DNA from: Tupaia tana
Taxonomy: Eukaryota; Chordata; Mammalia; Scandentia; Tupaiidae
Length of the DNA: 64,000 bases
Assembly (NCBI GenBank): GCA_026018925.1
Contig: JAKSZU010000018.1
Location: 4,000,920 to 4,064,919 of the forward strand
Direction: 5' to 3'
The notes under the pieces: model-generated
Seen by the model: the letters and a program-made list of their open reading frames with translations, nothing else
Database searches by the model: none
What the model was told of the DNA's origin: nothing
Shown here: piece after piece, positions 31,301-64,000 of the stretch
Layout: each line of letters opens with the position of its first letter
Position numbering within the stretch: the stretch's first letter is position 1
Program-made: the position numbers and the translations under genes

Positions 31301-34300
31301 ATATAAGGTAAGGTCAGCACCAGCGGGCTGCGGGCTGCAACCTTGTCCCGCTCTGGGGCAATTTCCTCTTCTTCCCCTTCCTCCTTTCTTTTGTCTTGCT
31401 CCGAATTCAGGGTTGGTTGGGTGGAAATTATGAAATCATTCTCTCGCTTTCTCTCATCTGTCTGCTGACCCACGGTCATTTATGGAGTGATCATGGTGGC
31501 CCGGCCCATGTGGTTGGTGCTGGGGTGTCAGGAGGTGAGAAGCTGGAGCGACCTGAAGTATGCATGCCGGACGCTGCCCCAGGCTAGAAAAGGTGGCGAT
31601 GCTGGACATAGCGCAGGGCCTCGGTCCTGAGTTTTGTCCTCCAGGCAGGCCTGTCTCTGGGGACAGCAATCTCCTCTGGGAGAAGGCAGAGTCTCCAATG
31701 TGGGTGTGTGTTGGGGACACCCCGGACGGGATTGATTGAAACTGCTCCCCAGTGATAGCTGGAACTGGGTGTTGAATTCAGGTTCCCTTTACCCACCTGT
31801 GGTCCCGTCTGGGTTTCAAGGTCTTGAGGGCTGCTTAGAGCTGGTGGGATTTGGGTGGTCCGGGATCAGTTGACAAAGAAAAGCCATTTCTGGGGCCAGC
31901 AGATGGCATAGCGGCTATGTTGCTGGGCCTCCCACATGGCCGACCATGGTTTGAGTCGGTGGCTTGGAAGCCATGCTGGGCACGTCTGCGTGTGTGCACG
32001 ACGCCCAAGATCCCAGGAGAATAGAGAAGGATTGTAATGTGGCCACCCCCTGGGGGGTGATTTCTCACTTTCCTTCTCACCGGCAAAAACCTCTTAAAAA
32101 AATAAAAGAAAGAAAAAGACAAAGAAAAGCCATTTCTGGGCTGCAGTGAGGTTTTCCACACCCACTGAAGGTCAAGTTCTTTGAGAACGAGTTAGAGCAA
32201 GGCCACGTGAGGCCGTGGAGGAAGGAGAGGGCGACGATGTCCCGAGAACGCCCGCGTGCAGCCAGCTTGGCCTGAGCGCCCTCACCAGCCCTCACCAGAG
32301 GGTAGTCCTCAGGAGGGGCTCCGGCCTTGCTGTGCCATGGCGGGCGTCTCTGAGCTGGGCTCCGTGCCACTGTGTGATGGCTGTCGGACCCTGGTTAATT
32401 ACCACGTCGTCAAAGGGAGTAGGAGGGACTGTGGTCGGGACTCGTTAGCAAGTAAGTGCCCAAGTGCCGCTCTTCCCTTCCTTGGCTGTGGGGTCCAGGG
32501 CAGTGGGAGTGGCTGGGGGCCAGTCCGGGAGGTCCCTGGTGCTCAGGAGCCACACCGAGGCGCCCCGATTCTGTACGCTCTCATGCTGAGAAGGCAGACC
32601 ATACAGGAAGCCCCTTTACGTGACCACTTCCTGGAAATAAAAGGTGTGGTGGGCAGGAGGGGCGGGCTGGGCTTGAGCACCTCTGCTCCTCTGCCTGCAG
32701 GCCATCGTCTGGCCCGAGCTGCCGGTGGGGCGCACAGGCCGTATCACTTCCTCCCCGCTCCTCTGTCTCTAATCAGTGGTTCTCAAGCTTCCGCAGCGGC
32801 CAGCACCTGGGGGCTCATTCAAGCACAATTTCCGGCCGGTCCCTAGAGTTTCTGAATCAGTAGGTCCAGGGTCCTGAGAACTCACATTTCTAGGAATCCT
32901 GGGTGCTGCTGCTCCGGGGACCACACTGAGGACTCCCTGCTTTCCAAAGGGAGGCCTCGGAGAGCTGGCTCTGTGCTTCCTTATCACAGCCTCTCCGAGC
33001 TGCAGTTTCTTCATCTGTGAGGGGCCGAGCAGACGACCTTAGAAGTTGGGAGGAGGGAGTGTGCGAATATGTGTAAATGTGGGCACGTGGCGAGCGAGCC
33101 AGGAACCCGACCTCAGCGACTTCTACACCAACTCTGTCTTACTGCCTCCCCCAGGCACACAGTAGGCCCTCAGGAAATACTCGCCAATGAATAACTCAGT
33201 GATGAGCTGTGTGCCCGAGGCCGTCCCCCCTTTGAAACCCAGAGGAGTGAGGAAGGTTTGCGGGTGCGGAAGGGCAGCCCACGCCTCAGCTGGGACAACC
33301 GAGGCTTGTGCTTTTTTGCCTATGAGATCCGGGCAGGCCTCTGTGCAGGATGGGGTTGGGCAGAGACGGGAGCTGGCCTGGGGCGAAGGACAAACCGTCC
33401 TTCTGTCCTGCCCAAGGCGAGGTCCAACCGGGCTCTGAACCTCCTTCGGGGTGAGCCAAGCGTGGAGCGAGGCCTCCATGGTGCTGACACAGGGCCTCGG
33501 TCAAGTGTGACGCCTCGCTGTGAAGTGACCAACACCTGTAAGCATAGCATGACTCGGGGACTTCCAAAACACGTCCGCCCGCAGCCTTGTTGACCGAGCC
33601 GTTGTCAGATAAGCGCTGAACCGTCAGGCAGCAAACCATGTCCTTCCTCGACCCCCGAGGTAATGGCGTCAGCCCGTGTCCCGGACACGCCAATGTCCTT
33701 GGGGTGGCGCGACTCACTTGCTGCATGTCTGTTTTGCACCAGGTCCTGGGCTGGGACTTGGGGTCAGGGTTCATGGGGGAATGGCTCCAGACAGGGACAG
33801 GGCTGCCCAACACACAGCTGGACGGGCTGAAGGAGGCAAGGAACAGGAGAGTCGGTGCAGGGGGCACGGCCCGGGCAGCCTGCAGAGAGGGTGGGCCCTG
33901 CGAGCTTGCTACAGTGGGAAGCCGGCCAGGCTGGTGACGTCCAGAGGACCGAGAAGCTGGGGCAGCTGATGCAGCCGGGAGGCTGGCACTTGGCTGCCTG
34001 GAGGGTCAGTGTCTTCAAGAAATGTGCCGGCCCAGTGTGGCAGCTCCAGCGGCTGTCCCACGTGGAGGCCTTGGCTGGGGACAGGCGGTTTGGGTCCAAA
34101 TGCACTCTGCAGCCCGAGCGAGCACCCAGGCTGAACAATGTGGAAATGGAACAGAGTGGTTACCATGGAAACGCTCACTGTTGCTTGTGACATCCAAGCG
34201 AGAGGCATGGGTCCGTCGGGTGTGTGGTCCTGCCTTCCACCAGGGCGAAGCTGAGGGTTAATGAAACGTCTCGGTGCTGCCTCTCCTCCACACCTCCAGA

Positions 34301-37300
34301 ACGCAGGCCGCACTTTCGGGCTGAAGGGATTCTCTGTGCTCTGGGACTCTCCGTGGCACGTGGTCGCATGCATTTCAGCTGGGAAGTTCCTTGGTTTCCC
34401 CAGCCTGTGAGTAGAAGCCACCCACAGCTTTGTCTGTGACGGCGACTTTAGGTAGGCCTGCCGTGTAGGGCTGGAGGGGTCTGGAGCTTTCACGTGAGTC
34501 TTCACGTGGACTGATGAGGGAGGTGTGAATTTGCCCCATTCTGGGGGCCACCTGGATGTCCGCCGAGCAAGGAAGAGACAGATGGATGTGGTCTGTCTAC
34601 GTGACGGGGTATTACTGTGCCGTCAGAAGGAAGGCCATGCCGGCACTCGCCGCCACACGGGTGAGCCTGAAAACGGGCTGTGGATTGCGAGAGCCGACCC
34701 AGGCAGGCTGCGTGCTCCGGCTCTGCGAACTCCGAGCCAGCGAACCCACGGCATAGGAAGGTGGGCTGGAGGCTGCCAGGGGCTGGGAGAGGGGCGTGAG
34801 AATCGGGAGCGTTTGCTGATGGAGACAGGTTTCTTTTTGGGGCGACAATGTCGTGGAGTTAGGTGGTGACAGCGGCTGCCAGCGCCGGTGGACTTTGTGC
34901 AGGGCTGGCGGCGGAGGCTCGAGTGTGGGAGCAGGCGAGTGCTCGCCTCCCATGTCCACGGGCCCCCGCCCCCCCCCCCCCCGCAGGGTTCCTCTTTGCT
35001 TGCCTCTCAGGTCTACCCTCTCGGGCCACCAAGCCCTGCACAGGATCTCCGAGGCCATCTTCCTCTGCCCCACTGACCCTGGGGGCAGCTCCCTGCAGTG
35101 TTGGGGGTGCTGGGCACCCACACCTTGGCCACATCATGTGACCTCAGGGCCACGTGCTTCCTCTCTCAAAGGATGTCAATGATGGGTTGACGGTGACGTC
35201 CCTTCATCATTCTGAAGCCCAAAGGAGAGCAGAATATAAGCATTTTTTTGAACAGGAAGGTGCTGTACCAGTTGGGGGGGCTCTGAGCTGTGTCCCTGAA
35301 GAAGTGTCGTGGGTCACCTGGCCCCGCGTGCAGTTTCAGTCGCCTGTTCGTGCATGCCCTGCCCAGCACTGCATGTTTTCTGGCCCCCGGGACATTCTGT
35401 GACCACAGCAGCCTGTGGTCCAAGGCGCGCTTCTTGGGGTTTGAGACAATTAGCAGGAAGTGAACTTTGTCAGCTCAAAGCCTGTGTCTCCTCCACGTGT
35501 CTGCGGCCTTGCTGGTGACGTCCCTGCTCTGTGGGCTTTGGCATGGGAATCTACAAACTCTCCAGGACATAAGGGCTCTGGAGTAATAAAGAGCAAAAAC
35601 CCGGGGCCAGCAGGTGGCATGCATGGTGGTTATGTCGCTGGACTCCCACATGGACAACAAGGGGTCGAGCCCAGACCTGGTGGCTTAGAACTCTGCCGGG
35701 CACGTGTGTATGCGTGCCCAAGATCCCAGGAGAGTGGAGGAGAAGGGATTGCAGCGTGGCCATCCCCCCACTTCCCCTCTCACTGTCTCTGTCTCTCTTT
35801 CTGGCAAGTGTATGCATCTTAAAGGAAAAAACTCTAAAAAATAATAATAATAAACAAACAAACAAACAAAAACACTCAAAATGTGGTCCTTTGGGCAGCC
35901 GCCTCAGTAGCACCTGGGAGCTTCGAGCATGCAGACCCTGGCCCAACCAGACCCGCTGCCTCAAAATCTGCATCTTGGGGAGATCCTCCAGGGGCTCCGG
36001 CCCACGCAGTGCCCAGAAAGCACACATGTTGCTGTATGGCGCCACCGGGCACCTGAGAAACCACAGCTGGCAGCCGTGAGCCCAGGGAGGTCCCAAGTGT
36101 CCGTGAGGTGGCTGGATAACTCGGAGCGGGGGCATCCCACACACCAGCTGTCACCTGTTAGGAACTGTGTCAAGATCCCACTGATAATGACATGAGCTGC
36201 GGATATCGGAACTGAGCCGAGGGAGGGTCTGTGATTGCCCGGCGAGCTCAGAACTCTGGTAGAAACACACCGGAAGCCCTGATTCCGCACACCCCTGAGC
36301 AGACCGAGGCTCTCACCTGGGGGTGGTTCTGCCCTGCTGGGGACCTCGGGCAACGCCCAGGGGCGTCTTTGCTTTGCTCACATGAGGGGTTCCTGGCATC
36401 CAGGGGTCCAGGCCAGGGATACTGCTCAGCACCTCCCAGCGCACAGGACGGCCCACCTCACGCAGTCAGGCCCCCATGTCAGCGCCGATGCTGAGAAGCC
36501 CACGGCACAGAGGTGCATGCCCTCCGCTCTAAAACCCAACATGAAATAATACTTGGGGACTTCAGAAAGTCACGGCAAGAGGGAGTCAACGATAGTTTTA
36601 TTTTGGTGCAAAGAGACCCAGTTGAAGTCCATGCATAGTTTTTTCATACTACGCATCTTCCGTGAATTTTTGGAAGACCTTTCATATCTTTTTAAAAGAA
36701 GAATTATTTTATTTAACTTATTCATTTATTTATTTTAATTTTACCAGAGAGGGACAGAGTGAGAGAGAGAGAGAGAGAAAGTGAGAAACCAAGCTGCCAG
36801 GTCCAGGACTTGAACTGTGGTCGTCCATGTGGGAGTCCAGCGCCCCTAACTGCCATGCCACCCACCGGCCCCTAAACCTTCATATTTCGATAACGTGGAG
36901 CAGTGGGGGACGGAGGAGCTTGGTGTGGTGGACTGGGGAAGGTTCCGAAGTGCGGGTGCTGAGAACAGCGTGGCAGGGAGTAAAGCCTGCGTGGGAACCT
37001 CTGGAACCACAGCCAGCAGCATTGTTTTCATTCTGTTTTTAGGCTTTTGCATAGGGTGTGGCCATTCCTCAGAGAGAGACAGAGAAAGTGAGGAATCACC
37101 CCCAGGGTAGATGGCCGCACCCCAATCCCTTCTCCATTCTCCTTGGGGGTACCTATGCACGTGCATCTGGCATGATTTTTAAGCCACTGGGTCTGGGACT
37201 CAAACCAGGGTCAGCCATGTGGGGAGTCCAGTGCCTTAACCATCATGCTGTCTCTGACCCTCAAAAGTCATTTTTAGTAAAAATGAGTGTATCATTTATA

Positions 37301-40300
37301 ACAAGCACAACACATCCAAGAGGAAAGTGCCCAGCGCCTGTTACTGGCCTGACTGTCCTGCCGGAGGCTAAACGTCCCGTGGGCCTCGGGCCGCGTCCCA
37401 GGCCAGGCTAAGGGCCACTCTCTCCCCTCGTCACCCCCCAGCATGGGTCTTGGCTGTCCACAAGGCGGCTGCCCCTTCCAAGCAGGACCTCAGACACTGA
37501 GTTACTCCTCAGTGACAAGTTGCCTGTCCCTGAATAAGATCCATAATCTGACCCTTGGCTGTATGAAGGTCATATGCCATGCAGCCAGGTTGTCCCTGGG
37601 TTCAAATCCCAAAATGACCTCAAACTGTCCACGTAACCTTGGGGCTGGCCTCCCTGGGCCTCCCTTTTCCATCTGGGACGCAGGCCAGTGCTGTCGTCGG
37701 GGCTGGGCGAGGAATGCGGCTTCCTTCCTGCTCCTCTCTCTGGCCGCACCTCCTGGCTGGTCCCGGGGCCGTGGCTCGCAGTGTGCCCTGACGCCGTGTT
37801 CTCTCTGCTCTTGGCCACAGATGACGTGCGGTTGTTCGCCTTCGTGCGCTTCACCACCGGGGACGCCATGAGCAAGAGGTCCAAGTTCGCCCTCATCACG
37901 TGGATCGGGGAGAACGTGAGCGGGCTGCAGCGGGCCAAAACCGGGACGGACAAGACCCTGGTGAAGGAGGTCGTCCAGGTAATCGTCCCCGTGTTCTCAG
38001 GGCCTGCGGGGCCGCCCCGTCCAGCAGGGACAGCGAAGGCTGCAGTTGACTCCTGGGTCTGGACCAGGACCTCTGGGGAAATGTTACCGGCCGTGTTCAG
38101 GGTGGGGGCAGGTGCCCTGTGTGCGGTCATGGCCATCACGCAGGGCCACGTGGCACTGCTGGGTACCTCTGTGGGTGGGACCACCCAAGTGGCAGCCCTG
38201 AGTCACACCAGGGTGACTTCCACTGTGGTGGTGAGGACCCAGTGGGAGAATGCTCTCTGTCCCGAGCAGTGCCACCCGTGGCAGTCCATGGCACGTGCTG
38301 ACTGTCACCCTGTAGAGGACAGCAGGCTGTCCTGGTTTTGGTGCCTGCAGACCAACAAAGGCTGCAGAGGTGGGTGCTGCCCACGGCCGGCATATGAGCG
38401 GCTTCAACCGTTCATGGAAAAGTCGATTGAAGTGCGAGTTTGTTTTGGGAAGCGTCGATGGCCAGGATGGTCTTCTCGCAGTGCACAGTTCCATGAACCT
38501 TCTTTGTCTCCTCATACACAGAGGGGAAGAGGCAGGGCACCCCTGCTTTATTCTCTGAGCCCCAGGACAGTCCTCTTCGGGGGCCTCCATTTTAAGGAAT
38601 TCTCCATCTGGCTGTTAAATTGACGCTCTCTGTGCCAGAAACCCCTGAGCCAAGGAACCCCGCCTCTCCCGGCGTGCTCAGGTGACCAGAGCTACTGCTG
38701 TGTGTCCTCAGCAGTCTGCCGTCACAGAGACTAGGCCCAGTGTCCCCTCCCCACCACAGGCACGTCGTTTTGGAGGTACATTAACAGTGGAGCAGCTGCA
38801 CAGCCTGGTCATTAAGGGAGCCCGATCCCCCGTGACTGAGCACGGTTCAGATGTCTGCCCTGGTGGGGGGAGGAACGTGCTGGGCACGCGTGCGCGCCTC
38901 CAGTCCAGACAGGACGGGAACGGAGACGAGGGATTGCGGAGTGACCACGCCCCACTGGGGGGGCTTCCTCGCCCTCCGGCAATTACAAACCAGTAATAGG
39001 ACACAAAGGTCTCACCGCCACCGCATTTTCGCGCTGTCCCCACCGGCTCCTCCGACGGGCGCTCTGGCGCCTTTCTGCGCTCTGCAGGTGCCTCTCACCG
39101 GCGACTTCCCTTTCTTTCCCCTTGTTTAGGTTAATACAATTCCGTAAGTTATGCGGCTGCATCGTGTTCATACTGAATGCCTTTCTGGTCGCCGGGTGTG
39201 CCGTTCCCCTAGTGTGCTCTAATGTACTGCATGTTCCCCTGTTCTTGGCCTCTCGTTGCTTCCAACTTTATTTTTGCAAACCATGTTCCAACCAGTGTTT
39301 CGCTACACGCGGCTTCTTTCTCTTTTAGTTCTCTAGAGTGTGTTCTCAGGAGGCGGGTTCCAGAGTTACAGATGGAGTGACATTTTTGAAAGGTGCCAGC
39401 TGTCAGAGTGCCTGGACCGAGCAAATGCTCACTAAATGTCACCCATTCCGTCGTCACCAGCACTACAGGGTAGCTCCGCTGTCTGCCCGCCGTCTGGCTC
39501 GGGAGCCCTGACTTTGGAAAGTCGTACCCAGCCCTGCAGGCCGCTTTTCTCCAGGCCTGTCGGGCTTTAATGGCTAACTAGCTTGGAGCGGTCACCTTTG
39601 GCAGCAGAACGGAAAGTGTGCACGGGCGTAGGTTCCACCAAGGTCTCCGGTTTCCTCCAGGGCCAGGCAGAGGGAGGACCTTGGGCGCGTGTGTGGGTGC
39701 GCTCGTTGGGCGCTGCCTTCCAGACCTTGCCATCGCTCTTCTCTTTCCATTAAAAGAAAGAGAAAAGGACTCGTCACTCCTGTCCAGTTCCAGAACTTTT
39801 CCGTCAGCACCAAAGGAAACCTTGTACCCGTGAAGCCCTCTCCAGAGCTTCTTTCAAGTCTAGAACTCTGTTTGGCTCGGTTACGTGGACAGACCTAGGT
39901 GACAGGCCCTCATGGGAGCCATCGGGTGGGAGCAGTGGGCATGCAAATTCAGCCTTTTTCATAAACTAGCAGTTCTGCCTGGCAAGGGTCCTTTGCCAGA
40001 CTCCGGCTCAGGTCCAAGCCCTCGGCCAGTTCCCCTTGGGGTCCCTGCCAAGCTCACCTGCCAGCCCCGGGCCTCCCGAAGCTCATGCCGTGACCTGTTG
40101 CAGGCTGCTTCACCTCCTTGAACCCCGATTTCCTCATCTGAGAAATCGGGGCTATAACCTGTGCCTCATGGGACTGTGGCAACTGAGTAGGCCCGTGTGG
40201 TAGATGCGCAGGGCTCCGTCTCGATGCTGTTCACGTAGTAGGCCAACTTCGTTGAGGGTGGAAGCAGCCTGGCGTTTACTGACAATGAACATCTTTGAGT

Positions 40301-43300
40301 ATATGTGTTGTCCTTAAAAAAAAATTCTGTTGATTTCTTTGGAAAGAATTCCAAACGTGGCCATAGCTGAGGAGCAGGGACTCCTGGGTGCTTTGACGGG
40401 AGAATAGGAGCCCTGAACGTGGACGTAATCTGCAGCTTGTCGGCTGAGCAACAGCAGCTATTCGGAGCTCTGGGTTAAGAGGGATTCTGAGGTTAAGCCT
40501 GGCAGTCAGTGGGGAAAGTGCCACAATTGATTTGTGATGTCTGCCGTGGACACTGGAGGAGAGGACTGTGTGTCCCACATTCTCGCCAAACCGGAGCCAG
40601 AGGGAGCATTTGTCAGAAGTCAGGCGAGGGGTTTGGTTCCAGGGCTTCTGTAAATATCTGTGGGTCAGACTCCAGGCCGTCGCCCACACTGGGTGGTCCT
40701 GCAGCGTTAGGGTTCCTGTACGGTTCTGGAGCAAACCCCCTCACGGCCTGCTTTCCTGCCACCCGTCCTCCTGTGCTCCCCTGAAATGTGGCCGTGCCCC
40801 TGTCTGTCCTTTGATCTCTCCCGAGTGAAGCAGGGTGGTCACTCCTGAGCTGCAAGGGGGCCCAGGTACGTTGTTCCCGAATCTGTTCAATGCTAGACCA
40901 CACGTCTTGGATCTGTTTTCTTTTTCCTTTTCACTCTGATGACTCATGCTTGTTACCAGAACCTGCTCTATGTGAGTAAATTACACCTTGCCATGGGTTT
41001 GAAAAGCCCTGATCCTGCAGGCACTTTAGAACAGTTGCAGGGGAAGGTGTGAGGGCCCCTGGAGGCTGGCGGCTAAACGGCTCAGCAGGTTTGAGGGCTG
41101 CGTTCTCATTCTTGGAGGCTGCAGGGTGCCGGGGACCAGCCACTTTTCTTCAGCACTCCAGGGTCTTTATGACTAGTCTTCACCCAACCCGGGATAAAGA
41201 CACATTACTGTGGCCAGAATGTCCCCTGTCTGCCTGCTGCCCACCTCATGCCTTTTGGAGGAGATTCTGTCCCTTGCACATTACTGCAAGGGTCTGGGGT
41301 GGACCCGAAGCCGACATGCAGCCTTCATCTGGAGAGGCGTGCTCCGATCCCAGCGTTGACTTTTCTGCACCTGTCTTTCCCTGGCCCCGCGATCCTGGCG
41401 TCTGCGGTAGAACCTTTTCCTGTGTCCGCGAGCTCCAGAGGCTTGAGTGTAGATCGTGGTAATGAGGGGTGGGAGGCAAGGCTTGGGGAGACCCTTTTGT
41501 TCAACTCTCCTGCTTTCCGAAGATGAAAACCGGGGCCTGGAGCCACTGAATGCTTCCTCCAGGGTCTTAGAGCCCTCCACATCCTTTTCACTCTCCTATC
41601 CTCAAAGAGACCCGTAAGCACCAGAAACTTGACGTCCCAAGATTTAGGAGAGCACAGCGTATGGGAAGTGTCCAATTAACACGTTTGTAGGAAGAATGCG
41701 TTCATTGGCTCCCTTCCTCTGGACATACGAAGGTCGCCACCCCCTGCACTCCTGACATCGCAGCGCTAACTGACAAGGACCCCTCCTCTTTCTCCCCAGA
41801 ACTCCCTGTGCACCCACATTCTCCATGTTGGGTAGGGTCATGACCACAGGGCGGGTGCTCTGGAAGACCTGATGCTTCTCCCCTCACAGCCTCCTAGCTA
41901 ACTCTGGGCCCAGCTTGGTTTTGCAGCCGGGTCTTTTCTCTGCGGGCGTGAGGTGATGCCAGTGTCACTGCCGTAGTGATCCGGGGTTCCCTTCATTGGA
42001 GGGAAATACTGGGAGGTGAGAGGGGGGAACCAGCCACCTCCTGTGTCTTCACTCTGAATAGTTTTATCTCAAAGTCCCCCAACACTCTTGAGAATAAAGG
42101 TGAACCCGTGATCATTTAAAATACGGCTAGTGATTGTCGAGCACGTGTTCTGTGCTGGGCACACTTAGTGAGTGTCCGAGTCCTCTGCACGCTTGTAAAA
42201 CCCTCCCACATCCCTAGGATCCCGGTGCTGCCAGTGCCCGTTTGCAGATGAGAAGACTAAGACTCAGCGAGGTTGAGTCCCTGGAGAGAGTCGGGCTTCT
42301 GGAGACCCAAATGGAAATCCGTCCCTAATTTTAAAAACTGGGGCCAGCAGTTAGTGTAATGGCTATGTCGCTGGACTCCCACGTAGTTGACCGTGGTTCG
42401 AGTCCCGGACCTGGTGGCTTAAAACTCATGCTGGGTGCGAATGCATGCGTGCCCAAGATCCTGAGAGGAGAATGGAGGAGAAGGGATTGCGGTAATGCCC
42501 TTCTAAAACCCTCCTTGCAAGCAGGCGCTCGACTGTACTGACCCTGGTCCCTACCTGCTGTCCCACGAGCATTGCCTCGCCCAGGAAAGCTGGCCAATGA
42601 GCCTCGCATCCTGGAGGCGTGAACACACGTGCACTTGAGAAGAGTCACGGGGACCGCGCTTGCCGCCAGCTGGTGGTGACATGCTTCCAGCCCACCCTGA
42701 TGGTGGCCTAAGCTGCTTGGAGTCACACGTAGCTGGGCGAGGCTTGCCCTCGGAAGCCTGTCTGGAAGCTCCGCGAGGAACACACTGCTGGACAGGACAA
42801 AGATCTCTCCAGAGCCCAGGTGGCAAGGTTCTGGACCGCACGTTTTGCCGTGAGGTCTCCGACAGGTTGCTTCGTCGGCCTCAGCGGCCTCAAGGCTGCT
42901 CAGGAGGGGTGGGCCACCTTCTGCAGCCCACAGAGGGGGTCATGGGGGAGAAGGCAGGGCCACGTCCCCAGGCTCCCCAGCATGACAGCGTGGTGTGCCC
43001 TAGGGCAAGTGGCTTCCCTTCTCTGGGCCTCCCTGTGGTTCTCTGTCAAATGAGAGACAGACGGTGAATTGTGAACGGCAGTTTCAAGGGCTCTTTTCTT
43101 TCAGCTCCACCCCCTCCCCATAACCAAAGTATAATTTACACAGAGGAGAATGCACACGCGTTGGTCAGGTAGCCTGATGCATTTTGTCATGCATGTTCAT
43201 GAGACTGCCGTATCGAGACACTGGCCCTGCTAGCCCCGCAGGCTCCCGTGGGCCCCTCTGCTGACTCAGATCAGCTCTAATGTGTTATGCTTTGCGACTT

Positions 43301-45616
43301 CCTCCTGGCTTAACCGAGTTCCTCTCACACTGCCTGCCCTGCCTAGCCCCGCACTGTCACCAGCCACCTGTGGGCACAGCGCACTCAGAGCGCACGCCAT
43401 CCACATGGCTGCTGTGCACCCAGGACGCTCGCTGGGCGGAGGCCGAGTGTGAAGACAGGAGTGTGCGAGACCTCTCGATAAATTGTGCATCGGTCACATG
43501 CTGAAATGACAATTTGGGATACATTGGGTTAGGTAAAATCGTATTAGAATTAAAATCGAGTTGGCCTGATAGAGGTTAAGGGAGTCAAATCTCACATTTC
43601 CGACCATAATTCGAGTCCTGGCCCCAGCAGCTTAGAAAACATGCCTGGTGTGTGTGCACCTGTGTCTGCTCAGAATCCCAGCAGGACGGGAGGCGGGGAA
43701 GGACTTGCAGCCCTTCATAGGTGCTTTCTCCCTCTTCTCTCTTCATTTTCCTGGGGTGAATATGCAAGCCCTTTGGCAAATGAAAAAAAAGTGTCACCTT
43801 TTCAACATGGCGATGAGAGAATGTAAAGGCCCATATGCATCAGCATCACTCCAGGCCCTAAAAGCCTCCTTCTGAGTGAAGACTTGCCTCACCCCCCCAC
43901 CCACCTCCTGCCACCTATCTCTGCCTCTTGTGGGTGTTCGGTGGCTCATGGAGGTGACTGAGGAGAGGCGAGGGTGACAGGAGGTGGCCATGGTCTGCCC
44001 AGTTGTGCTTGTGGGGTTTCAGTGTCAGCTGCTCCCACAGTCACTTTGTGGTGTCAGGCATGCCCCCGGCTGGGGTGCGTCTGCCCAGAGCCGTTTGTTT
44101 AGTTTCTGTCTGTTTTGGAAAACGTATGGTCCAGCCCGGTCCCCAGTAGCCTGGCGACTCCCTTGCCTGGCCCCCGGCCTGACCCAGTGAGCACTGCTGG
44201 CTGCGCAGAGGTGGAGGGCTTGAGGGACGGTCTGCTGAGCTGGTTTTCAGGCTGGTGGCTGAGGCGGACACTTGGGGGCATTTTACGGAGCCCACGTGCT
44301 GACTGGGAGGTGTTGACTCCTGCGGCGGGCCCTGGGCTGCCAGCATCCTGTGCGCGGGCCTGCTAAGACCGCAGTGGCCGCCTGCCACCTCCACCTGCTG
44401 TGGAGGTGGGAGGATGGAGAGCCGTTGAACCAGCCATGGGGTACTGCTTGCTGAGCCTCAGTTTCCCTTTCTGTGACTTGAAAGGTAAGGGAAGGTGACC
44501 TCTTTGGACTTTTCTACCCCTGCCATTTGTGATGTCACTGAGGATTTGTGATGTCAGACCAGAGGAAGCACATTCCTTATGTCATCCACAAACACCCTCT
44601 GCTACTCTTCGGAGCAGCAGGGCTGCAGCCAAGTCTGGGCCCTGCCCTTGGTGGTCACGTGGAGGGGTTCCTGGGCACGGAGGGCAACAGAGGCGAGTGC
44701 AGCAGCCACTGGCCATCAGCCAGGCTGCAGGTAGAGGGCCCCACAGGGCTCCTGTCTGAATCAAAGGTCATCGGCCCCCCTGAGCGGGCGTCAGGATTCT
44801 TCCACGGAGTTTGAGGTCGTCCTTATGGGTCCTGGGGCAGGGCCACAGCCTCTATAGCCTCAGAAATGTTTAAGCCGCCACCCTGGTCATTAGGAGAAAG
44901 AAGAATTTCAGTAGAAAACAAGGTGGGATTCTTAATGTTGTGCAATTAATTCTGTTGTTTCCATGAGCATAAAGGGAAGGGACATGTGAAGATAACGTAG
45001 GACTTGGAGATGAGAGCCAGTTTAAGTACTAAGACACTTGATCTGTGATGCTTTTCTTTATATAGTAATCGGATTGTTGGATGGCTTGTCTTCTAAGACC
45101 TTTCTAAGTAGCCACAAACAAAACATGTCTTTCGTCTTCCATTTTCTACTGAGACAGAGGGAAAGGACATCTGGCTGGTACAGAAAGGTTATCAAGTGCC
45201 TGCTGACCCAGATTATCTTGTTAGATTTGGTCTGCTTCTAATATCTTCAAAGGTCACATGGTTACTTTTCTGTATACTTTTGTGTTCACATGACTTGGGA
45301 TCTTTTTTTTTCCCCCTCTTACCTTTTGGTTTTAAACATGTCTGGTATATAGCAGAGTTTAGGCATTTTTTTTCTTTCCATTTTTGTTAGTTTGAGACTT
45401 AGCAGTGTTTTAGGTGTAATTTTGTTCATTTATATTTATTGTTGTTTTTAGTTAGTTTGGTTCATTTACATTTATTGTTATGTTTCACTAGATCCTGCTC
45501 TCTTGTTTGCTTATTTTGGTTGTCGTTTGATTTCCCATGTACCTGCACTTTTTGATGGATTGTGTCCAGCTCCAGGTACAGTTCGCCCTAGATTTCTTCT
45601 TCTTTTTTTTTTTTTA

Positions 45617-45649
<33 letters not shown>

Positions 45650-51588: not shown

Positions 51589-51688
51589 NNNNNNNNNNNN
51601 NNNNNNNNNNNNNNNNNNNNNNNNNNNNNNNNNNNNNNNNNNNNNNNNNNNNNNNNNNNNNNNNNNNNNNNNNNNNNNNNNNNNNNNN
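51589..51688. other. Assembly gap of 100 N
   Basis: Exactly 100 N, a conventional placeholder for a gap of unknown size. The sequence to its left is single-copy COTL1 3' flank. The sequence to its right restarts within what is otherwise COTL1 intron 2. The true distance and even the join itself are therefore uncertain. Confidence 0.98.
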
Positions 51689-54600
51689 GTGGGAGTGGCT
51701 GGGGGCCAGTCCGGGAGGTCCCTGGTGCTCAGGAGCCACACTGAGGCGCCCCGATTCTGTACGCTCTCATGCTGAGAAGGCAGACCATACAGGAAGCCCC
51801 TTTACGTGACCACTTCCTGGAAATAAAAGGTGTGGTGGGCAGGAGGGGCGGGCTGGGCTTGAGCACCTCAGCTCCTCTGCCTGCAGGCCATCGTCTGGCC
51901 CGAGCTGCCTGCCGGTGGGGGCTGCCGGTGGGGCGCACAGGCCGTATCACTTCCTCCCCGCTCCTCTGTCTCTAATCAGTGGTTCTCAAGCTTCCGCAGC
52001 GGCCAGCACCTGGGGGCTCATTCAAGCACAATTTCCGGCCCGGTCCCTAGAGTTTCTGAATCAGTAGGTCCAGGGTCCTGAGAACTCACATTTCTAGGAA
52101 TCCTGGGTGCTGCTGCTCCGGGGACCACACTGAGGACTCCCTGCTTTCCAAAGGGAGGCCTCGGAGAGCTGGCTCTGTGCTTCCTTATCACAGCCTCTCC
52201 GAGCTGCAGTTTCTTCATCTGTGAGGGGCCGAGCAGACGACCTTAGAAGTTGGGAGGAGGGGAGTGTGCGAATATGTGTAAATGTGGGCACGTGGCGAGC
52301 GAGCCAGGAACCCGACCTCAGCGACTTCTACACCCACTCTGTCTTACTGCCTCCCCCAGGCACACAGTAGGCCCTCAGGAAATACTCGCCAATGAATAAC
52401 TCAGTGATGAGCTGTGTGCCCGAGGGCCGTCCCCCCTTTGAAACCCAGAGGAGTGAGGAAGGTTTGCGGGTGCGGAAGGGCAGCCCACGCCTCAGCTGGG
52501 ACAACCGAGGCTTGTGCTTTTTTGCCTATGAGATCCGGGCAGGCCTCTGTGCAGGATGGGGTTGGGCAGAGACAGGAGCTGGCCTGGGGCGAAGGACAAA
52601 CCGTCCTTCTGTCCTGCCCAAGGCGAGGTCCAACCGGGCTCTGAACCTCCTTTGGGGGTGAGCCAAGCGTGGAGCGAGGCCTCCATGGTGCTGACACAGG
52701 GCCTCGGTCAAGTGTGACGCCTCGCTGTGAAGTGACCAACACCTGTAAGCATAGCATGACTCGGGGACTTCCAAAACACGTCCGCCCCGCAGCCTTGTTG
52801 ACCGAGCCGTTGTCAGATAAGCGCTGTCACACAGCAAACCATGTCCTTCCTCGACCCCCGAGGTAATGGCGTCAGCCCGTGTCCCGGACACGCCAATGTC
52901 CTTGGGGTGGTGCGGCTCACTTGCTGCATGTCTGTTTTGCACCAGGTCCTGGGCTGGGACTTGGGGTCAGGGTTCATGGGGGAATGGCTCCAGACAGGGA
53001 CAGGGCTGCCCAACACACAGCTGGATGGGCTGAAGGAGGCAAGGAACAGGAGAGTCTGTGCAGGGGGCACGGCCCGGGCAGCCTGCAGAGAGGGTGGGCC
53101 CTGCGAGCTTGCTACACTGGGAAGCCGGCCAGCTGGTGACGTCCAGAGGACCGAGAAGCTGGGGCAGCTGATGCAGCCGGGAGGCTGGCACTTGGCTGCC
53201 TGGAGGGTCAGTGTCTTCAAGAAATGTGCCGGCCCAGTGTGGCAGCTCCAGCGGCTGTCCCACGTGGAGGCCTTGGCTGGGGACAGGCGGTTTGGGTCCA
53301 AATGCACTCTGCAGCCCGAGCGAGCACCCAGGCTGAACAATGTGGAAATGGAACAGAGTGGTTACCATGGAAACGCTCACTGTTGCTTGTGACATCCAAG
53401 CGAGAGGCATGGGTCCGTCGGGTGTGTGGTCCTGCCTTCCACCAGGGCGAAGCTGAGGGTTAATGAAACGTCTCGGTGCTGCCCTCTCCTCCACACCTCC
53501 AGAACGCAGGCCGCACTTTCGGGCTGAAGGGATTCTCTGTGCTCTGGGACTCTCCGTGGCACGTGGTCGCATGCATTTCAGCTGGGAAGTTCCTTGGTTT
53601 CCCCAGCCTGTGAGTAGAAGCCACCCACAGCTTTGTCTGTGACGGCGACTTTAGGTAGGCCTGCCGTGTAGGGCTGGAGGGGTCTGGAGCTTTCACGTGA
53701 GTCTTCACGTGGACTGATGAGGGAGGTGTGAACTTGCCCCATTCTGGGGGCCACCTGGATGTCCGCCGAGCAAGGAAGAGACAGATGGATGTGGTCTGTC
53801 TACGTGACGGGGGTATTACTGTGCCGTCAGAAGGAAGGCCATGCCGGCACTCGCCGCCACACGGGTGAGCCTGAAAACGGGCTGTGGATTGCGAGAGCCG
53901 ACCCAGGCAGGCTGCGTGCCCCGGCTCTGCGAACTCCGAGCCAGCCAACCCACGGCATAGGAAGGTGGGCCGGAGGCTGCCAGGGGCTGGGAGAGGGGTG
54001 TGAGAATCGGGAGCGTTTGCTGATGGAGACAGGTTTCTTTTTGGGGCGACAGTGTCGTGGAGTTAGGTGGTGACAGCGGCTGCCAGCGCCGGTGGACTTT
54101 GTGCAGGGCTGGCGGCGGAGGCTCGAGTGTGGGAGCAGGCGAGTGCTCGCCTCCCATGTCCACGGGCCCCTGCCCCCCCCCCCCCCCCCGGGTTCCTCTT
54201 TGCTTGCCTCTCAGGTCTACCCTCTCGGGCCACCAAGCCCTGCACAGGATCTCCGAGGCCATCTTCCTCTGCCCCACTGACCCTGGGGGCAGCTCCCTGC
54301 GGTGTTGGGGGTGCTGGGCACCCACACCTTGGCCACATCATGTGACCTCAGGGCCACGTGCTTCCTCTCTCAAAGGATGTCAATGATGGGTTGACGGTGA
54401 CGTCCCTTCATCATTCTGAAGCCCAAAGGAGAGCAGAATATAAGCATTTTTTTGAATAGGAAGGTGCTGTACCAGTTGGGGGGGGCTCTGAGCTGTGTCC
54501 CTGAAGATGTGTCGTGGCCTGGCCCCGGTCACCTGGCCCCGCGTGCAGTTTCAGTCGCCTGCCCTGCCCAGCACTGCATGTTTTCTGGCCCCCGGGACAT

Positions 54601-54808
54601 TCTGTGACCACAGCAGCCTGTGGTCCAAGGCGCGCTTCTTGGGGTTTGAGACAATTAGCAGGAAGTGAACTTTGTCAGCTCAAAGCCTGTGTCTCCTCCA
54701 CGTGTCTGCGGGCCTTGCTGGTGACGTCCCTGCTCTGTGGGCTTTGGCATGGGAATCTACAAACTCTCCAGGACATAAGGGCTCTGGAGTAATAAAGAGC
54801 AAAAACCC

Positions 54809-55080
54809 GGGGCCAGCAGGTGGGCATGCATGGTGGTTATGTCGCTGGACTCCCACATGGACAACAAGGGGTCGAGCCCCAGACCTGGTGGCTTAGAACT
54901 CTGCCGGGCACGTGTGTATGCGTGGCCCAAGATCCCAGGAGAGTGGAGGAGAAGGGGTTGCAGCGTGGCCATCCCCCCACTTCCCCTCTCACTGTCTCTG
55001 TCTCTCTTTCTGGCAAGTGTATGCATCTTAAAGGAAAAAACTCTAAAAAATAGTAATAATAAACAAACAAACAAACAAAA
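54809..55080 (+). mobile_element. tRNA-derived SINE (copy B of 35603-35878)
   Basis: Same insertion as in copy A, differing by single-base length changes (GGTGGGCATG, GAGCCCCAGACC, GTGGCCCAAG). Confidence 0.9.
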
Positions 55081-55937
55081 ACACTCAAAACGTGGTCCTT
55101 TGGGCAGCCGCCTCAGTAGCACCTGGGAGCTTCGAGCATGCAGACCCTGGCCCAACCAGACCCGCTGCCTCAAAAATCTGCATCTTGGGGAGATCCTCCA
55201 GGGGCTCCGGCCCACGCAGTGCCCAGAAAGCACACATGTTGCTGTATGGCGCCACCGGGCACCTGAGAAACCACAGCTGGCAGCCGTGAGCCCAGGGAGG
55301 TCCCAAGTGTCCGTGAGGTGGCTGGATAACTCCGAGCGGGGGCATCCCATACACCAGCTGTCACCTGTTAGGAACTGTGTCAAGATCCCACTGATAATGA
55401 CATGAGCTGCGGATATCGGAACTGAGCCGAGGGAGGGTCTGTGATTGCCCGGCGAGCTCAGAACTCTGGTAGAAACACACCGGAAGCCCTGATTCCGCAC
55501 ACCCCTGAGCAGACCGAGGCTCTCACCTGGGGGTGGTTCTGCCCTGCTGGGGACCTCGGGCAACGCCCAGGGGCGTCTTTGCTTTGCTCACATGAGGGGT
55601 TCCTGGCATCCAGGGGTCCAGGCCAGGGATACTGCTCAGCACCTCCCAGCGCACAGGACGGCCCACCTCACGCAGTCAGGCCCCCATGTCAGCGCCGATG
55701 CTGAGAAGCCCACGGCACAGAGGTGCATGCCCTCCACTCTAAAACCCAACATGAAATAATACTTGGGGACTTCAGAAAGTCACGGCAAGAGGGAGTCAAC
55801 GATAGTTTTATTTTGGTGCAAAGAGACCCAGTTGAAGTCCATGCATAGTTTTTTCATACTACGCATCTTCCGTGAATTTTTGGAAGACCTTTCATATCTT
55901 TTTAAAAGAAGAATTATTTTATTTAACTTATTCATTT

Positions 55938-56082
55938 ATTTATTTTAATTTTACCAGAGAGGGACAGAGTGAGAGAGAGAGAGAGAGAAAGTGAGAAACC
56001 AAGCTGCCAGGTCCAGGACTTGAACTGTGGTCGTCCATGTGGGAGTCCAGTGCCCCTAACTGCCATGCCACCCACCGGCCCC
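55938..56082 (-). mobile_element. Short-form SINE (copy B of 36728-36872)
   Basis: Near-identical to copy A; one visible change is CCAGTGCCCC for CCAGCGCCCC. Confidence 0.88.
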
Positions 56083-56246
56083 TAAACCTTCATATTTCGA
56101 TAACGTGGAGCAGTGGGGGACGGAGGAGCTTGGTGTAGTGGACTGGGGAAGGTTCCGAAGTGCGGGTGCTGAGAACAGCGTGGCAGGGAGTTAAGCCTGC
56201 GTGGGAACCTCTGGAACCACAGCCAGCAGCGTTGTTTTCATTCTGT

Positions 56247-56470
56247 TTTTAGGCTTTTGCATAGGGTGTGGCCATTCCTCAGAGAGAGACAGAGAAAGTG
56301 AGAAATCACCCCCAGGATAGATGGCCGCACCCCAATCCCTTCTCCATTCTCCTTGGGGGTACCTATGCACGTGCATCTGGCATGATTTTTAAGCCACTGG
56401 GTCTGGGACTCAAACCAAGGTCAGCCACGTGGGGAGTCCAGCGCCTTAACCATCATGCTGTCTCTGACCC
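56247..56470 (-). mobile_element. Long-form SINE (copy B of 37037-37260)
   Basis: Same insertion as copy A with about five substitutions (for example GAGAAATCACC for GAGGAATCACC). Confidence 0.82.
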
Positions 56471-57051
56471 TCAAAAGTCATTTTTAGTAAAAATGAGTGT
56501 ATCATTTATAACAAGCACAACACATCCAAGAGGAAAGTGCCCAGCGCCTGTTACTGACCTGACTGTCCTGCCGGAGGCTAAACGTCCCGTGGGCCTCGGG
56601 CCACGTCCCAGGCCAGGCTAAGGGCCACTCTGTCCCCTCGTCACCCCCCAGCATGGGTCTTAGCTGTCCACAGGGCAGGACCCTTCCGAGCAGGACCTCA
56701 GACACTGAGGAGTAAGACTGACAAGTTGCCTGTCCCTGAATAAGATCCATAATCTGACCCTTGGCTGTATGAAGGTCATATGCCATGCAGCCAGGTTGTC
56801 CCTGGGTTCAAATCCCAACATGACCTCAAACTGCCCACGTAACCTTGGGGCTGGCCTCCCTGGGCCTCCCTTTTCCATCTGGGACGCAGGCCAGTGCTGT
56901 CGTCGGGGCTGGGCGAGGAATGCGGCTTCCTTCCTGCTCCTCTCTCTGGCTGGGCTGCTCTGGGGCGCTCTGGCCGCACCTCCTGGCTGGTCCTGGGGGC
57001 CGTGGCTCGCAGTGTGCCCTGACGCCGTGTTCTCTCTGCTCTTGGCCACAG

Positions 57052-57209
57052 ATGACGTGCGGTTGTTCGCCTTCGTGCGCTTCACCACCGGGGACGCCAT
57101 GAGCAAGAGGTCCAAGTTCGCCCTCATCACGTGGATCGGGGAGAACGTGAGCGGGCTGCAGCGGGCCAAAACCGGGACGGACAAGACCCTGGTGAAGGAG
57201 GTCGTCCAG
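57052..57209 (+). pseudogene. COTL1: Orphan second copy of COTL1 exon 3
   Basis: All 158 bases are identical to 37821-37978, with the same AG acceptor and GTAATC donor. It lies downstream of the COTL1 polyadenylation signal and beyond the gap, with no other COTL1 exon alongside in the window. It is therefore not part of the transcript as assembled. It is probably an allelic duplicate in the assembly rather than a genuine extra exon or partial gene copy. A gene predictor could wrongly build a second partial COTL1 here. Confidence 0.85.
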
Positions 57210-60200
57210 GTAATCGTCCCCGTGTTCTCAGGGCCTGTGGGGGCCGCCCCGTCCAGCAGGGACAGCGAAAGCTGCAGTTGACTCCTGGGTCTGGACCAGG
57301 ACCTCTGGGGAAATGTTTACCGGCCGTGTTCAGGGTGGGGGCAGGTGCCCTGTGTGCGGTCATGGCCATCACGCAGGGCCACGTGGCACTGCTGGGTACC
57401 TCTGTGGGTGGGACCACCCAAGTGGCAGCCCTGAGTCACACCAGGGTGACTTCCACTGTGGTGGTGAGGACCCAGTGGGAGAATGCTCTCTGTCCCGAGC
57501 AGTGCCACCCGTGGCAGTCCATGGCACGTGCTGACTGTCACCCTGTGGAGGACAGCAGGCTGTCCTGGTTTTGGTGCCTGCAGACCAACAAAGGCTGCAG
57601 AGGTGGGTGCTGCCCACGGCCGGCATATGAGCGGCTTCAACCGTTCATGGAAAAGTCGATTGAAGTGCGAGTTTGTTTTGGGAAACGTCGATGGCCAGGA
57701 TGGTCTTCTCGCAGTGCACAGTTCCATGAACCTTCTTTGTCTCCTCATACACAGAGGGGAAGAGGCAGGGCACCCCTGCTTTATTCTCTGAGCCCCAGGA
57801 CAGTCCTCCATTTTAAGGAATTCTCCATCTGGCTGTTAAATTGATGCTCTCTGTGCCAGAAACCCCTGAGCCAACGAACCCCGCCTCTCCCGGCGTGCTC
57901 AGGTGACCAGAGCTACTGCTGTGTGTCCTCAGCAGTCTGCCGTCACAGAGACTAGGCCCAGTGTCCCCTCCCCACCACAGGCACATCGTTTTGGAGGTAC
58001 ATTAACAGTGGAGTAGCTGCACAGCCTGGTCATTAAGGGAGCCCGATCCCCCGTGACTGAGCACGGTTCAGATGTCTGCCCTGGTGGGGGGAGGAACGTG
58101 CTGGGCACGCGTGCGCGCCTCCAGTCCAGACAGGACGGGAACGGAGACGAGGGATTGCGGAGTGACCACGCCCCACTGGGGGGGCTTCCTCGCCCTCCGG
58201 CAATTACAAACCAGTAATAGGACACAAAGGTCTCACCGCCACCGCATTTTCGCGCTGTCCCCACCGGCTCCTCCGACGAGCACTCTGGCGCCTTTCTGCG
58301 CTCTGCAGGTGCCTCTCACCGGCGACTTCCCTTTCTTTCCCCTTGTTTAGGTTAATACAATTCCGTAAGTTATGCGGCTGCATCGTGTTCATAGTGAATG
58401 CCTTTCTGGTCGCCGGGTGTGCCGTTCCCCTAGTGTGCTCTAATGTACTGCATGTTCCCCTGTTCTTGGCCTCTCGTTGCTTCCAACTTTATTTTTGCAA
58501 ACCATGTTCCAACCAGTGTTTTGCTACATGCGGCTTCTTTCTCTTTTAGTTCTCTAGAGTGTGTTCTCAGGAGGCGGGTTCCAGAGTTACAGATGGAGTG
58601 ACATTTTTGAAAGGTGCAAGCTGTCAGAGTGCCTGGACCGAGCAAATGCTCACTAAATGTCACCCATTCCGTCGTCACCAGCACTACAGGGTAGCTCCGC
58701 TGTCTGCCCGCCGTCTGGCTCGGGAGCCCTGACTTTGGAAAGTCGTACCCAGCCCTGCAGGCCGCTTTTCTCCAGGCCTGTCGGGCTTTAATGGCTAACT
58801 AGCTTGGAGCGGTCACCTTTGGCAGCAGAACGGAAAGTGTGCACGGGCGTAGGTTCCACCAAGGTCTCCGGTTTCCTCCAGGGCCAGGCAGAGGGAGGAC
58901 CTTGGGCGCGTGTGTGGGTGCGCTCGTTGGGCGCTGCCTTCCAGACCTTGCCATCGCTCTTCTCTTTCCATTAAAAGAAAGAGAAAAGGACTCGTCACTC
59001 CTGTCCAGTTCCAGAACTTTTCCGTCAGCACCAAAGGAAACCTTGTACCCGTGAAGCCCTCTCCAGAGCTTCTTTCAAGTCTAGAACTCTGTTTGGCTCG
59101 GTTACGTGGACAGACCTAGGTGACAGGCCCTCATGGGAGCCATCGGGTGGGAGCAGTGGGCATGCAAATTCAGCCTTTTTCATAAACTAGCAGTTCTGCC
59201 TGGCAAGGGTCCTTTGCCAGACTCCGGCTCAGGTCCAAGCCCTCGGCCAGTTCCCCTTGGGGTCCCTGCCAAGCTCACCTGCCAGCCCCGGGCCTCCCGA
59301 AGCTCATGCCGTGACCTGTTGCAGGCTGCTTCACCTCCTTGAGCCCCGATTTCCTCATCTGAGAAATCGGGGCTATAACCTGTGCCTCATGGGACTGTGG
59401 CAACTGAGTAGGCCCGTGTGGTAGATGCGCAGGGCTCCGTCTCGATGCTGTTCACGTAGTAGGCCAACTTCGTTGAGGGTGGAAGCAGCCTGGCGTTTAC
59501 TGACAATGAACATCTTTGAGTGTATGTGTTGTCCTTAAAAAAAAATTCTGTTGATTTCTTTGGAAAGAATTCCAAACGTGGCCATAGCTGAGGAGCAGGG
59601 ACTCCTGGGCGCTTTGACGGGAGAGTAGGAGCCCTGAACGTGGACGTAATCTGCAGCTTGTCGGCTGAGCAACAGCAGCTATTCGGAGCTCTGGGTTAAG
59701 AAGGATTCTGAGGTTAAGCCTGGCAGTCAGTGGGGAAAGTGCCACAATTGATTTGTGATGTCTGCCGTGGACACTGGAGGAGAGGACTGTGTGTCCCACA
59801 TTCTCGCCAAACCGGAGCCAGAGGGAGCATTTGTCAGAAGTCAGGCGAGGGGTTTGGTTCCAGGGCTTCTGTAAATATCTGTGGGTCAGACTCCAGGCTG
59901 TCGCCCACACTGGGTGGTCCTGCAGCGTTAGGGTTCCTGTACGGTTCTGGAGCAAACCCCCTCACGGCCTGCTTTCCTGCCACCCGTCCTCCTGTGCTCC
60001 CCTGAAATGTGGCCGTGCCCCTGTCTGTCCTTTGATCTCTCCCGAGTGAAGCAGGGTGGCTCACTCCTGAGCTGCAAGGGGGCCCAGGTACGTTGTTCTC
60101 GAATCTGTTCAATGCTAGACCACACGTCTTGGATCTGTTTTTTTTTCCTTTTCACTCTGATGACTCATGCTTGTTACCAGAACCTGCTCTGTGTGAGTAA

Positions 60201-61559
60201 ATTACACCTTGCCATGGGTTTGAAAAGCCCTGATCCTGCAGGCACTTTAGAACAGTTGCAGGGGAAGGTGTGAGGGCCCCGGGAGGCTGGCGGCTAAACG
60301 GCTCAGCAGGTTTGAGGGCTGCGTTCTCATTCTTGGAGGCTGCAGGGTGCCCGGGACCAGCCACTTTTCTTCAGCACTCCAGGGTCTTTATGACTAGTCT
60401 TCACCCACCCGGGATAAAGACATTACTGTGGCCAGAATGTCCCCTGTCTGCCTGCTGCCCACCTCATGCCTTTTGGAGGAGATTCCGTCCCCTGCACGTT
60501 ACTGCAAGGGTCTGGGGTGGACCCGAAGCCGACACGCAGCCTTCATCTGGAGAGGCGTGCTCCGATCCCAGCGTTGACTTTTCTGCGCCTGTCTTTCCCT
60601 GGCCCCGCGATCCTGGCGTCTGCGGTAGAACCTTTTCCTGTGTCCGCGAGCTCCAGAGGCTTGAGTGTAGATCGTGGTAATGAGGGGTGGGAGGCAAGGT
60701 TTGGGGAGACCCTTTTGTTCAACTCTCCTCCTTTCCGAAGATGAAAACCGGGGCCTGGAGCCACTGAATGCTTCCTCCAGGGTCTTAGAGCCCTCCACAT
60801 CCTTTTCACTCTCCTATCCTCAAAGAGACCCGTAAGCACCAGAAACTTGACGTCCCAAGATTTAGGAGAGCACAGCGTATGGGAAGTGTCCAATTAACAC
60901 GTTTGTAGGAAGAATGCGTTCATTGGCTCCCATCCTCTGGACATACGAAGGTCGCCACCCCCTGCACTCCTGACATCGCAGCGCTAACTGACAAGGACCC
61001 CTCCTCTTTCTCCCCAGAACTCCCTGTGCACCCACATTCTCCATGTTGGGTAGGGTCATGACCACAGGGCGGGTGCTCTGGAAGACCTGATGCTTCTCCC
61101 CTCACAGCCCTCCTAGCTAACTCTGGGCCCAGCTTGGTTTTGCAGCCTGGTCTTTTCTCTGCGGGCGTGAGGTGATGCCAGTGTCACTGCCATAGTGATC
61201 CGGGGTTCCCTTCATTGGAGGGAAATACTGGGAGGTGAGAGGGGGGAACCAGCCACCTCCTGTGTCTTCATTCTGAATAGTTTTATCTCAAAGTCCCCCA
61301 ACACTCTTGAGAATAAAGGTGAAACCTGTGATCATTTAAAATACGGCTAGTGATTGTCGAGCACGTGTTCTGTGCTGGGCACACTTAGTGAGTGTCCGAG
61401 TCCTCTGCACGCTTGTAAAACCCTCCCACATCCCTAGGATCCCGGTGCTGCCAGTGCCCGTTTGCAGATGAGAAGACTAAGACTCAGCGAGGTTGAGTCC
61501 CTGGAGAGAGTTGGGCTTCTGGAGACCCAAATGGAAATCTGTCCCTAATTTTAAAAACT

Positions 61560-61717
61560 GGGGCCAGCAGTTAGTGTAATGGCTATGTCGCTGGACTCCC
61601 ACGTAGTTGACCGTGGTTCGAGTCCCGGACCTGGTGGCTTAAAACTCATGCTGGGCGCGAATGCATGCGTGCCCAAGATCCTGAGAGGAGAATGGAGGAG
61701 AAGGGACTGCGGTAATG
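61560..61717 (+). mobile_element. Truncated SINE (copy B of 42340-42497)
   Basis: Same truncated insertion; GGGCGCGAATG replaces GGGTGCGAATG and GGGACTGCGG replaces GGGATTGCGG. Confidence 0.88.
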
Positions 61718-62782
61718 CCCTTCTAAAACCCTCCTTGCAAGCAGGTGCTCGACTGTACTGACCCTGGTCCCTACCTGCTGTCCCACGAGCATTGCCTCGC
61801 CCAGGAAAGCTGGCCAGTGAGCCTCGCATCCTGGAGGCGTGAACACACGTGCCCTTGAGAAGAGTCACGGGGACCGCGCTTGCCGCCAGCTGGTGGTGAC
61901 ATGCTTCCAGCCCACCCTGATGGTGGCCTAAGTTGCTTGGAGTCACACATAGCTGGGCGAGGCTTGCCCTCGGAAGCCTGTCTGGAAGCTCCGCGAGGAA
62001 CACACTGCTGGACAGGGCAAAGATCTCTCCAGAGCCCAGGTGGCAAGGTTCCGGACCGCACGTTTTGCCGTGAGGTCTCCGACAGGTTGCTTCGTCGGCC
62101 TCAGCGGCCTCAAGGCTGCTCAGGAGGGGTGGGCCACCTTCTGCAGCCCACAGAGGGGGGTCATGGGGGAGAAGGCAGGGCCACGTCCCCAGGCTCCCCA
62201 GCATGACAGCGTGGTGTGCCCTAGGGCAAGTGGCTTCCCTTCTCTGGGCCTCCCTGTGGTTCTCTGTCAAACGAGAGACAGACGGTGAATTGTGAACGGC
62301 AGTTTCAAGGGCTCTCTTCTTTCAGCTCCACCCCCTCCCCATAACCAAAGTATAATTTACACAGAGGAGAATGCACACGCGTTGGCCAGGTAGCCTGATG
62401 CATTTTGTCATGCATGTTCATGAGACTGCCGTATCAAGACACTGGCCCTGCTAGCCCCGCAGGCTCCCGTGGGCCCCTCTGCTGACTCAGATCAGCTCTA
62501 ATGTGTTATGTTTTGCGACTTCCTCCTGGCTTAACCGAGTTCCCCTCACACTGCCTGCCCTGCCTAGCCCCGCACTGTCACCAGCCACCTGTGGGCACAG
62601 CGCACTCAGAGCGCACGCCATCCACATGGCTGCTGTGCACCCAGGACGCTCGCTGGGCGGAGGCCGAGTGTGAAGACAGGAGTGTGCGAGACCTCTCGAT
62701 AAATTGTGCATCGGTCACATGCTGAAATGACAATTTGGGATACATTGGGTTAGGTAAAATCGTATTAGAATTAAAATCGAGT

Positions 62783-63011
62783 TGGCCCGATAGAGGTTAA
62801 GGGAGTCAAATCTCACATTTCCGACCATAATTCGAGTCCTGGCCCCAGCAGCTTAGAAAACATGCCTGGTGTGTGTGCACCTGTGTCTGCTCAGAATCCC
62901 AGCAGGACGGGAGGCGGGGAAGGACTTGCAGCCCTTCATAGGTGCTTTCTCCCTCTTCTCTCTTCATTTTCCTGGGGTGAATATGCAAGCCCTTTGGCAA
63001 ATGAAAAAAAA
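62783..63011 (+). mobile_element. Old SINE (copy B of 43562-43790)
   Basis: Near-identical to copy A; GGCCCGATAGAGG replaces GGCCTGATAGAGG. Confidence 0.75.
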
Positions 63012-64000
63012 GTGTCACCTTTTCAACATGGCGATGAGAGAATGTAAAGGCCCATATGCATCAGCATCACTCCAGGCCCTAAAAGCCTCCTTCTGAGTGA
63101 AGACTTGCCTCACCCCCCCACCCACCTCCTGCCACCTATCTCTGCCTCTTGTGGGTGTTCGGTGGCTCATGGAGGTGACTGAGGAGAGGCGAGGGTGACA
63201 GGAGGTGGCCGTGGTCTGCCCGGTTGTGCTTGTGGGGTTTCAGTGTCAGCTGCTCCCACAGTCACTTTGTGGTGTCAGGCATGCCCCCGGTTGGGGTGCG
63301 TCTGCCCAGAGCCGTTTGTTTAGTTTCTGTCTGTTTTGGAAAACGTATGGTCCAGCCCAGTCCCCAGTGGCCTGGCGACTCCCTTGCCTGGCCCCCGGCC
63401 TGACCCAGTGAGCACTGCTGGCTGCGCAGAGGTGGAGGGCTTGAGGGAGGGTCTGCTGAGCTGGTTTTCAGGCTGGTGGCTGAGGCGGACACTTGGGGGC
63501 ATTTTACAGAGCCCACGTGCTGACTGGGAGGTGTTGACTCCTGCGGCGGGCCCTGGGCTGCCAGCATCCTGTGCGCGGGCCTGCTAAGACCGCAGTGGCC
63601 GCCTGCCACCTCCACCTGCTGTGGAGGTGGAAGGATGGAGAGCCGTTGAACCAGCCATGGGGTACTGCTTGCTGAGCCTCAGTTTCCCTTTCTGTGACTT
63701 GAAAGGTAAGGGAAGGTGACCTCTTTGGACTTTTCTACCCCTGCCATTTGTGATGTCACTGAGGATTTGTGATGTCAGACCAGAGGAAGCACATTCCTTA
63801 TGTCATCCACAAACACCCTCTGCTACTCTTCGGAGCAGCAGGGCTGCAGCCAAGTCTGGGCCCTGCCCTTGGTGGTCACGTGGAGGGGTTCCTGGGCACG
63901 GAGGGCAGCAGAGGCGAGTGCAGCAGCCACTGGCCATCAGCCAGGCTGCAGATAGAGGGCCCCACAGGGCTCCTGTCTGAATCAAAGGTCATCGGCCCCC

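Follow-up and report, generated by a model that had tools for sequence, protein, structure and literature searches.

Unmerged overlapping contig ends as the probable origin of a 19.1-kb repeat in and beyond COTL1 in a Tupaia tana genome assembly

A long direct repeat flanking an assembly gap in and beyond the gene for coactosin-like protein (COTL1) is very probably an assembly artefact, in which the overlapping ends of two haplotype contigs were left unmerged and the last part of COTL1 was falsely doubled. The repeat was studied in a window of 64,000 nucleotides (the whole stretch of DNA analysed; C297:4000920-4064919 of a 70.86-Mb scaffold, in an assembly of 2.948 Gb and 1,198 sequences). Additionally, a 264-kb stretch consisting of the window with 30 kb to its left and 170 kb to its right was compared with itself. 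In the proposed course of events, a polymorphic region that includes part of COTL1 and the sequence downstream of it would have been assembled from different haplotypes on the two sides of the gap, one giving the left contig and the other the right. The assembler would have failed to see that 19.1 kb at the end of the left contig and 19.1 kb at the start of the right contig represent the same locus, and the scaffolder would then have placed the contigs end to end with what is presumably a default gap of 100 N. The animal itself would carry a single locus per haploid genome, of which the two copies would be alleles.

Self-blastn of the window revealed one long match on the same strand, between 32503-44779 (12,277 bases) and 51689-64000, with 12,348 columns and 98.16% identity, far above chance level. 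The initial annotation had described a copy that repeats the first block in order and orientation, begins immediately after a 100-N gap and still matches at the window end, and all of this was borne out: the gap, the sole run of N in the window, occupies 51589-51688, copy B starts at 51689, and the flanking sequence shows that the match continues beyond 64000. The length of 12.3 kb given there was set by the window end and has to be corrected to approximately 19.1 kb. Specifically, the final 19,086 bases of the contig to the left of the gap (copy A, 32503-51588, plus strand) correspond to the first 19,114 bases of the contig to its right. Copy B, also on the plus strand, thus extends past the window to position 70802 in window numbering (G000:C297:4071721), and the same end was found in a genome-wide probe search.

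The two contigs therefore overlap as a dovetail. Copy A aligns with the right contig from the first base of the latter, over the full overlap and in the same orientation, and the match of copy B stops at the counterpart of 51588, where the left contig ends, and its own contig runs on unbroken from there. Both ends of the overlap coincide with the gap edges to the last base in the 264-kb self-comparison, and the 100 N lie between the two copies on one scaffold, C297. A dovetail with a gap at the junction is, by construction, the expected product of overlapping contigs that were not merged. The suggestion in the initial annotation of a retained alternative haplotype beside a gap is hence supported as the best reading, refined from a contained haplotig to a dovetail whose ends lie at the gap edges.

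A comparison of the left flank of copy A with the last kilobase before the gap gave a longest match of only 29 bp. The gap is therefore not located inside a repeat unit, and a gap within a longer tandem unit was ruled out. For the sequence following copy B, of which 30 kb were tested, no long second copy was found in the 264 kb; the longest non-self match was 351 bp among the five longest matches. The best 40 matches above 400 bp within the 264 kb comprised the two pieces of the duplication, and all the rest fell into one satellite array. This array of approximately 4 kb lies outside the window at G000:C297:4176908-4180858, some 4.18 Mb into the scaffold. Repeated TTAGGG/TTAGG telomere-like motifs are present in the 262 bases that were read at its beginning, and it is possibly an interstitial telomere-like array.

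The number of copies in the whole genome was assessed with three probes. The probe 44780-45780 matched copies A and B alone (two of two candidates). For 50389-51588 (1,200 bases) and 37601-39100 (1,500 bases), A and B were the sole long, near-identical places among the best 40 of 295 and the best 40 of 107 candidates, respectively, and with either probe the remaining 38 of the 40 scored matches were shorter than 230 bases. A repeat with at least three copies or a dispersed repeat was rejected, as the three probes, two of them judged on their best 40 matches, match only A and B at length. A search for tRNAs returned no genes.

The gene was identified as COTL1 by tblastn with the human protein, and its exons, all on the plus strand, were delimited by splice sites and reading frame. 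Judged by COTL1 and the repeats, the window has the character of mammalian DNA. The coding part of exon 1 (16277-16353) and exon 2 (16605-16687) occur once in the window. Exon 3 of copy A (37821-37978) comprises 158 bp with AG/GT splice sites, and exon 4 is coding from 49421 to the stop codon at 49531, with an AATAAA motif at 50686. On the left contig the four coding exons join into a complete reading frame of 142 residues. Copy B restarts within intron 2, and a second exon 3 lies downstream of the gene (57052-57209), identical to copy A in all 158 bases and with the same AG/GT splice sites. This identity is uninformative, since the chance of finding no change in 162 bases at 0.94% divergence is about 0.22. 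Exon 3 has a length not divisible by three, and splicing in both copies would break the frame. Intron 1 (16354-16604) measures only 251 bp in the assembly and has GT/AG ends. Intron 2 harbors two minisatellites, one with a 34-bp unit in approximately 16 copies (20348-20886) and one with a 28-bp unit in approximately 14 copies with 92% matches (29143-29527). Furthermore, a 94-bp unit is present in two tandem copies with 96% matches at 22796-22981.

The only serious rival is a real, recent tandem duplication of 19 kb, reaching from COTL1 intron 2 to beyond the gene end, whose assembly would have stopped precisely where the two units join. Recent tandem segmental duplications share the colinearity, the common orientation, the identity above 98% and the length above 10 kb observed here, their units likewise lack transposon-sized differences, and assemblers can break at repeat boundaries. 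In this case, however, the junction is the gap and both unit boundaries are contig ends. The contig break would have to fall exactly on the junction, with zero bases of the second unit left on the left contig, and what is absent is precisely the contiguous junction by which a real tandem duplication could be established. Moreover, Ko et al. (PMC9516828) describe gaps between false duplicates that share a scaffold and did not find them at true duplications. A real duplication is accordingly considered improbable.

The substitutions between the copies resemble mutations. In the blocks within the window, global alignment gave 115 substitutions among 12,237 paired bases (0.94%), in agreement with the divergence of about 1% estimated by eye in the initial annotation, together with 34 indels that amount to 115 indel bases. 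Over the full overlap, leaving out 88 columns that read N, 148 substitutions were counted among 18,939 paired bases (0.78%) with 54 indels, the largest of 24 bp. The figures vary slightly with the aligner; MAFFT yielded 158 substitutions and 50 indels for the full overlap. Among the 148 substitutions, 108 are transitions and 40 transversions (Ts/Tv 2.7), and 56 are CpG transitions, with CpG accounting for 7.7% of sites. Such a spectrum reflects mutational divergence rather than read error and favors two alleles over a pure read-error duplicate, although true paralogues would show allele-like differences of this kind as well. Substitution density is uneven: the 19 full kilobases contain between 0 and 19 substitutions each (variance/mean 2.7), a pattern that two haplotypes would produce but that is not diagnostic of them. 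Five indels measure between 10 and 24 bp, and all of them fall within 6.1 kb of the start of the block. As no indel exceeds 24 bp, no transposon-sized insertion is confined to one copy; the naming of the shared repeats as SINE, MIR and DNA transposons comes from the initial annotation only.

If the copies are alleles, the 0.78% (0.94% in the window) would be a high heterozygosity compared with many mammals and counts against the allelic reading. Heterozygosities of 0.22, 0.34, and 0.95% are given for three VGP genomes in the report on false duplications in these assemblies (PMC9516828), and the local value of 0.78% is therefore not extraordinary.

Single-base indels are distributed differently along the overlap. 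In its left half, the extra base was found in copy B in 18 cases and in copy A in 3, and in the right half in B in 4 and in A in 11 (n = 36; Fisher p 0.0005, Mann-Whitney p 0.0001), the test having been devised after the pattern was seen. The MAFFT alignment gave 18 extras in B and 3 in A in the left half and 3 and 10 in the right half (n = 34). Of the 22 single-base indels no more than 4 kb away from a contig end, a cut likewise chosen after inspection, 20 had the extra base in the contig that ends there (MAFFT). Indels longer than 1 bp showed no trend, neither in the global alignment (n = 18; 5 extras in B and 6 in A, then 4 and 3; p 1.0) nor under MAFFT (n = 16; 3 and 6, then 4 and 3; p 0.61). 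With all 54 indels pooled, the extras numbered 23 in B and 9 in A in the left half and 8 and 14 in the right half (p 0.013). A generally poorer copy A, as the single-base indels of the window taken alone might indicate (20 bases missing in A and 3 in B), was discarded, as the sign flips along the full overlap.

The polarized extras are read as consensus errors of the insertion type, made where the contigs thin out. Their accumulation toward the broken end of the contig that carries them suggests low-quality, decaying contig ends on both sides of the gap; a real tandem duplication whose assembly stopped at the junction would look the same in sequence and might also have contig ends of poor quality. 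The end of the left contig is rich in G+C (71% in its final 300 bases, 51289-51588), a possible cause of weak coverage.

End-clustered extras would also arise if a single haplotype had been assembled twice at a contig boundary, every difference between the copies being a read error. For such homotype duplications, the VGP authors describe dovetails at contig boundaries that are often about as long as one corrected read, look like tandem repeats with a scaffolding gap and carry apparent errors at their ends (PMC8081667); a long read of 19 kb is plausible. Unlike a pure homotype case, the copies here also carry CpG-rich, transition-rich substitutions. They are thus not identical apart from sequencing errors, even though the single-base extras look like errors; the Ts/Tv of 2.7, the strong excess of CpG transitions and the five indels of 10 to 24 bp are unlike read error. 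A pure read-error duplicate was set aside on the substitution spectrum and is very unlikely, and a mixture of two haplotypes with errors at the contig ends fits better. Finally, a duplication with both copies on a single chromosome of the animal is least credible of all, as the allele-specific tandem duplication mentioned by Ko et al. is described as lying in one contig without a gap (PMC9516828), in contrast to the gap at the junction here.

Artefacts of the kind favored here, with overlapping contigs of two haplotypes left unmerged, are already known and ordinary. Kelley and Salzberg (2010; PMC2864568) described "duplicated overlapping contigs" (DOC), and their counts of contigs mis-assembled in this way include 5,698 in the chicken, 13,159 in the chimpanzee, 1,094 in the cow and 8 in the dog assembly. 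As in the present case, neighboring contigs overlap at their ends, heterozygous sequence is split between two contigs, each of which continues into different sequence on its far side, and exons can be repeated by the false duplication; in their SCPEP1 example, the identity was 98.6% and the contig overlapped over its full length. In contrast to the DOC set out there, the overlap in the COTL1 region comprises 19.1 kb in a 70.9-Mb scaffold, and DOC calls rest on mate pairs, whereas the present assignment uses sequence only. The VGP authors described heterotype duplications of a "flanking contigs" pattern (PMC8081667), which were quantified by Ko et al. (PMC9516828). There, too, the copies share a scaffold but are separated by a gap, the 5' side is joined to one haplotype and the 3' side to the other, and the differences look like mutations. 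Half coverage and haplotype k-mers are part of the VGP case in these two reports, whereas the COTL1 repeat was classified from the assembled bases alone.

The importance of the finding lies mainly in assembly hygiene. Taken at face value, the locus would enter the annotation as a 19-kb segmental duplication of recent origin and a partial COTL1 paralogue, and read mapping would be ambiguous over 38 kb. The polarization of single-base indels, which longer indels do not share, may help to spot unmerged overlaps in FASTA files without reads, although a single case is no validation. There is a slight chance that the 3' part of the COTL1 locus has undergone a real, young tandem duplication. If so, a copy beginning in intron 2 would lie downstream of an intact COTL1 and could alter 3'-end processing or yield frame-shifted transcripts with a duplicated exon 3.
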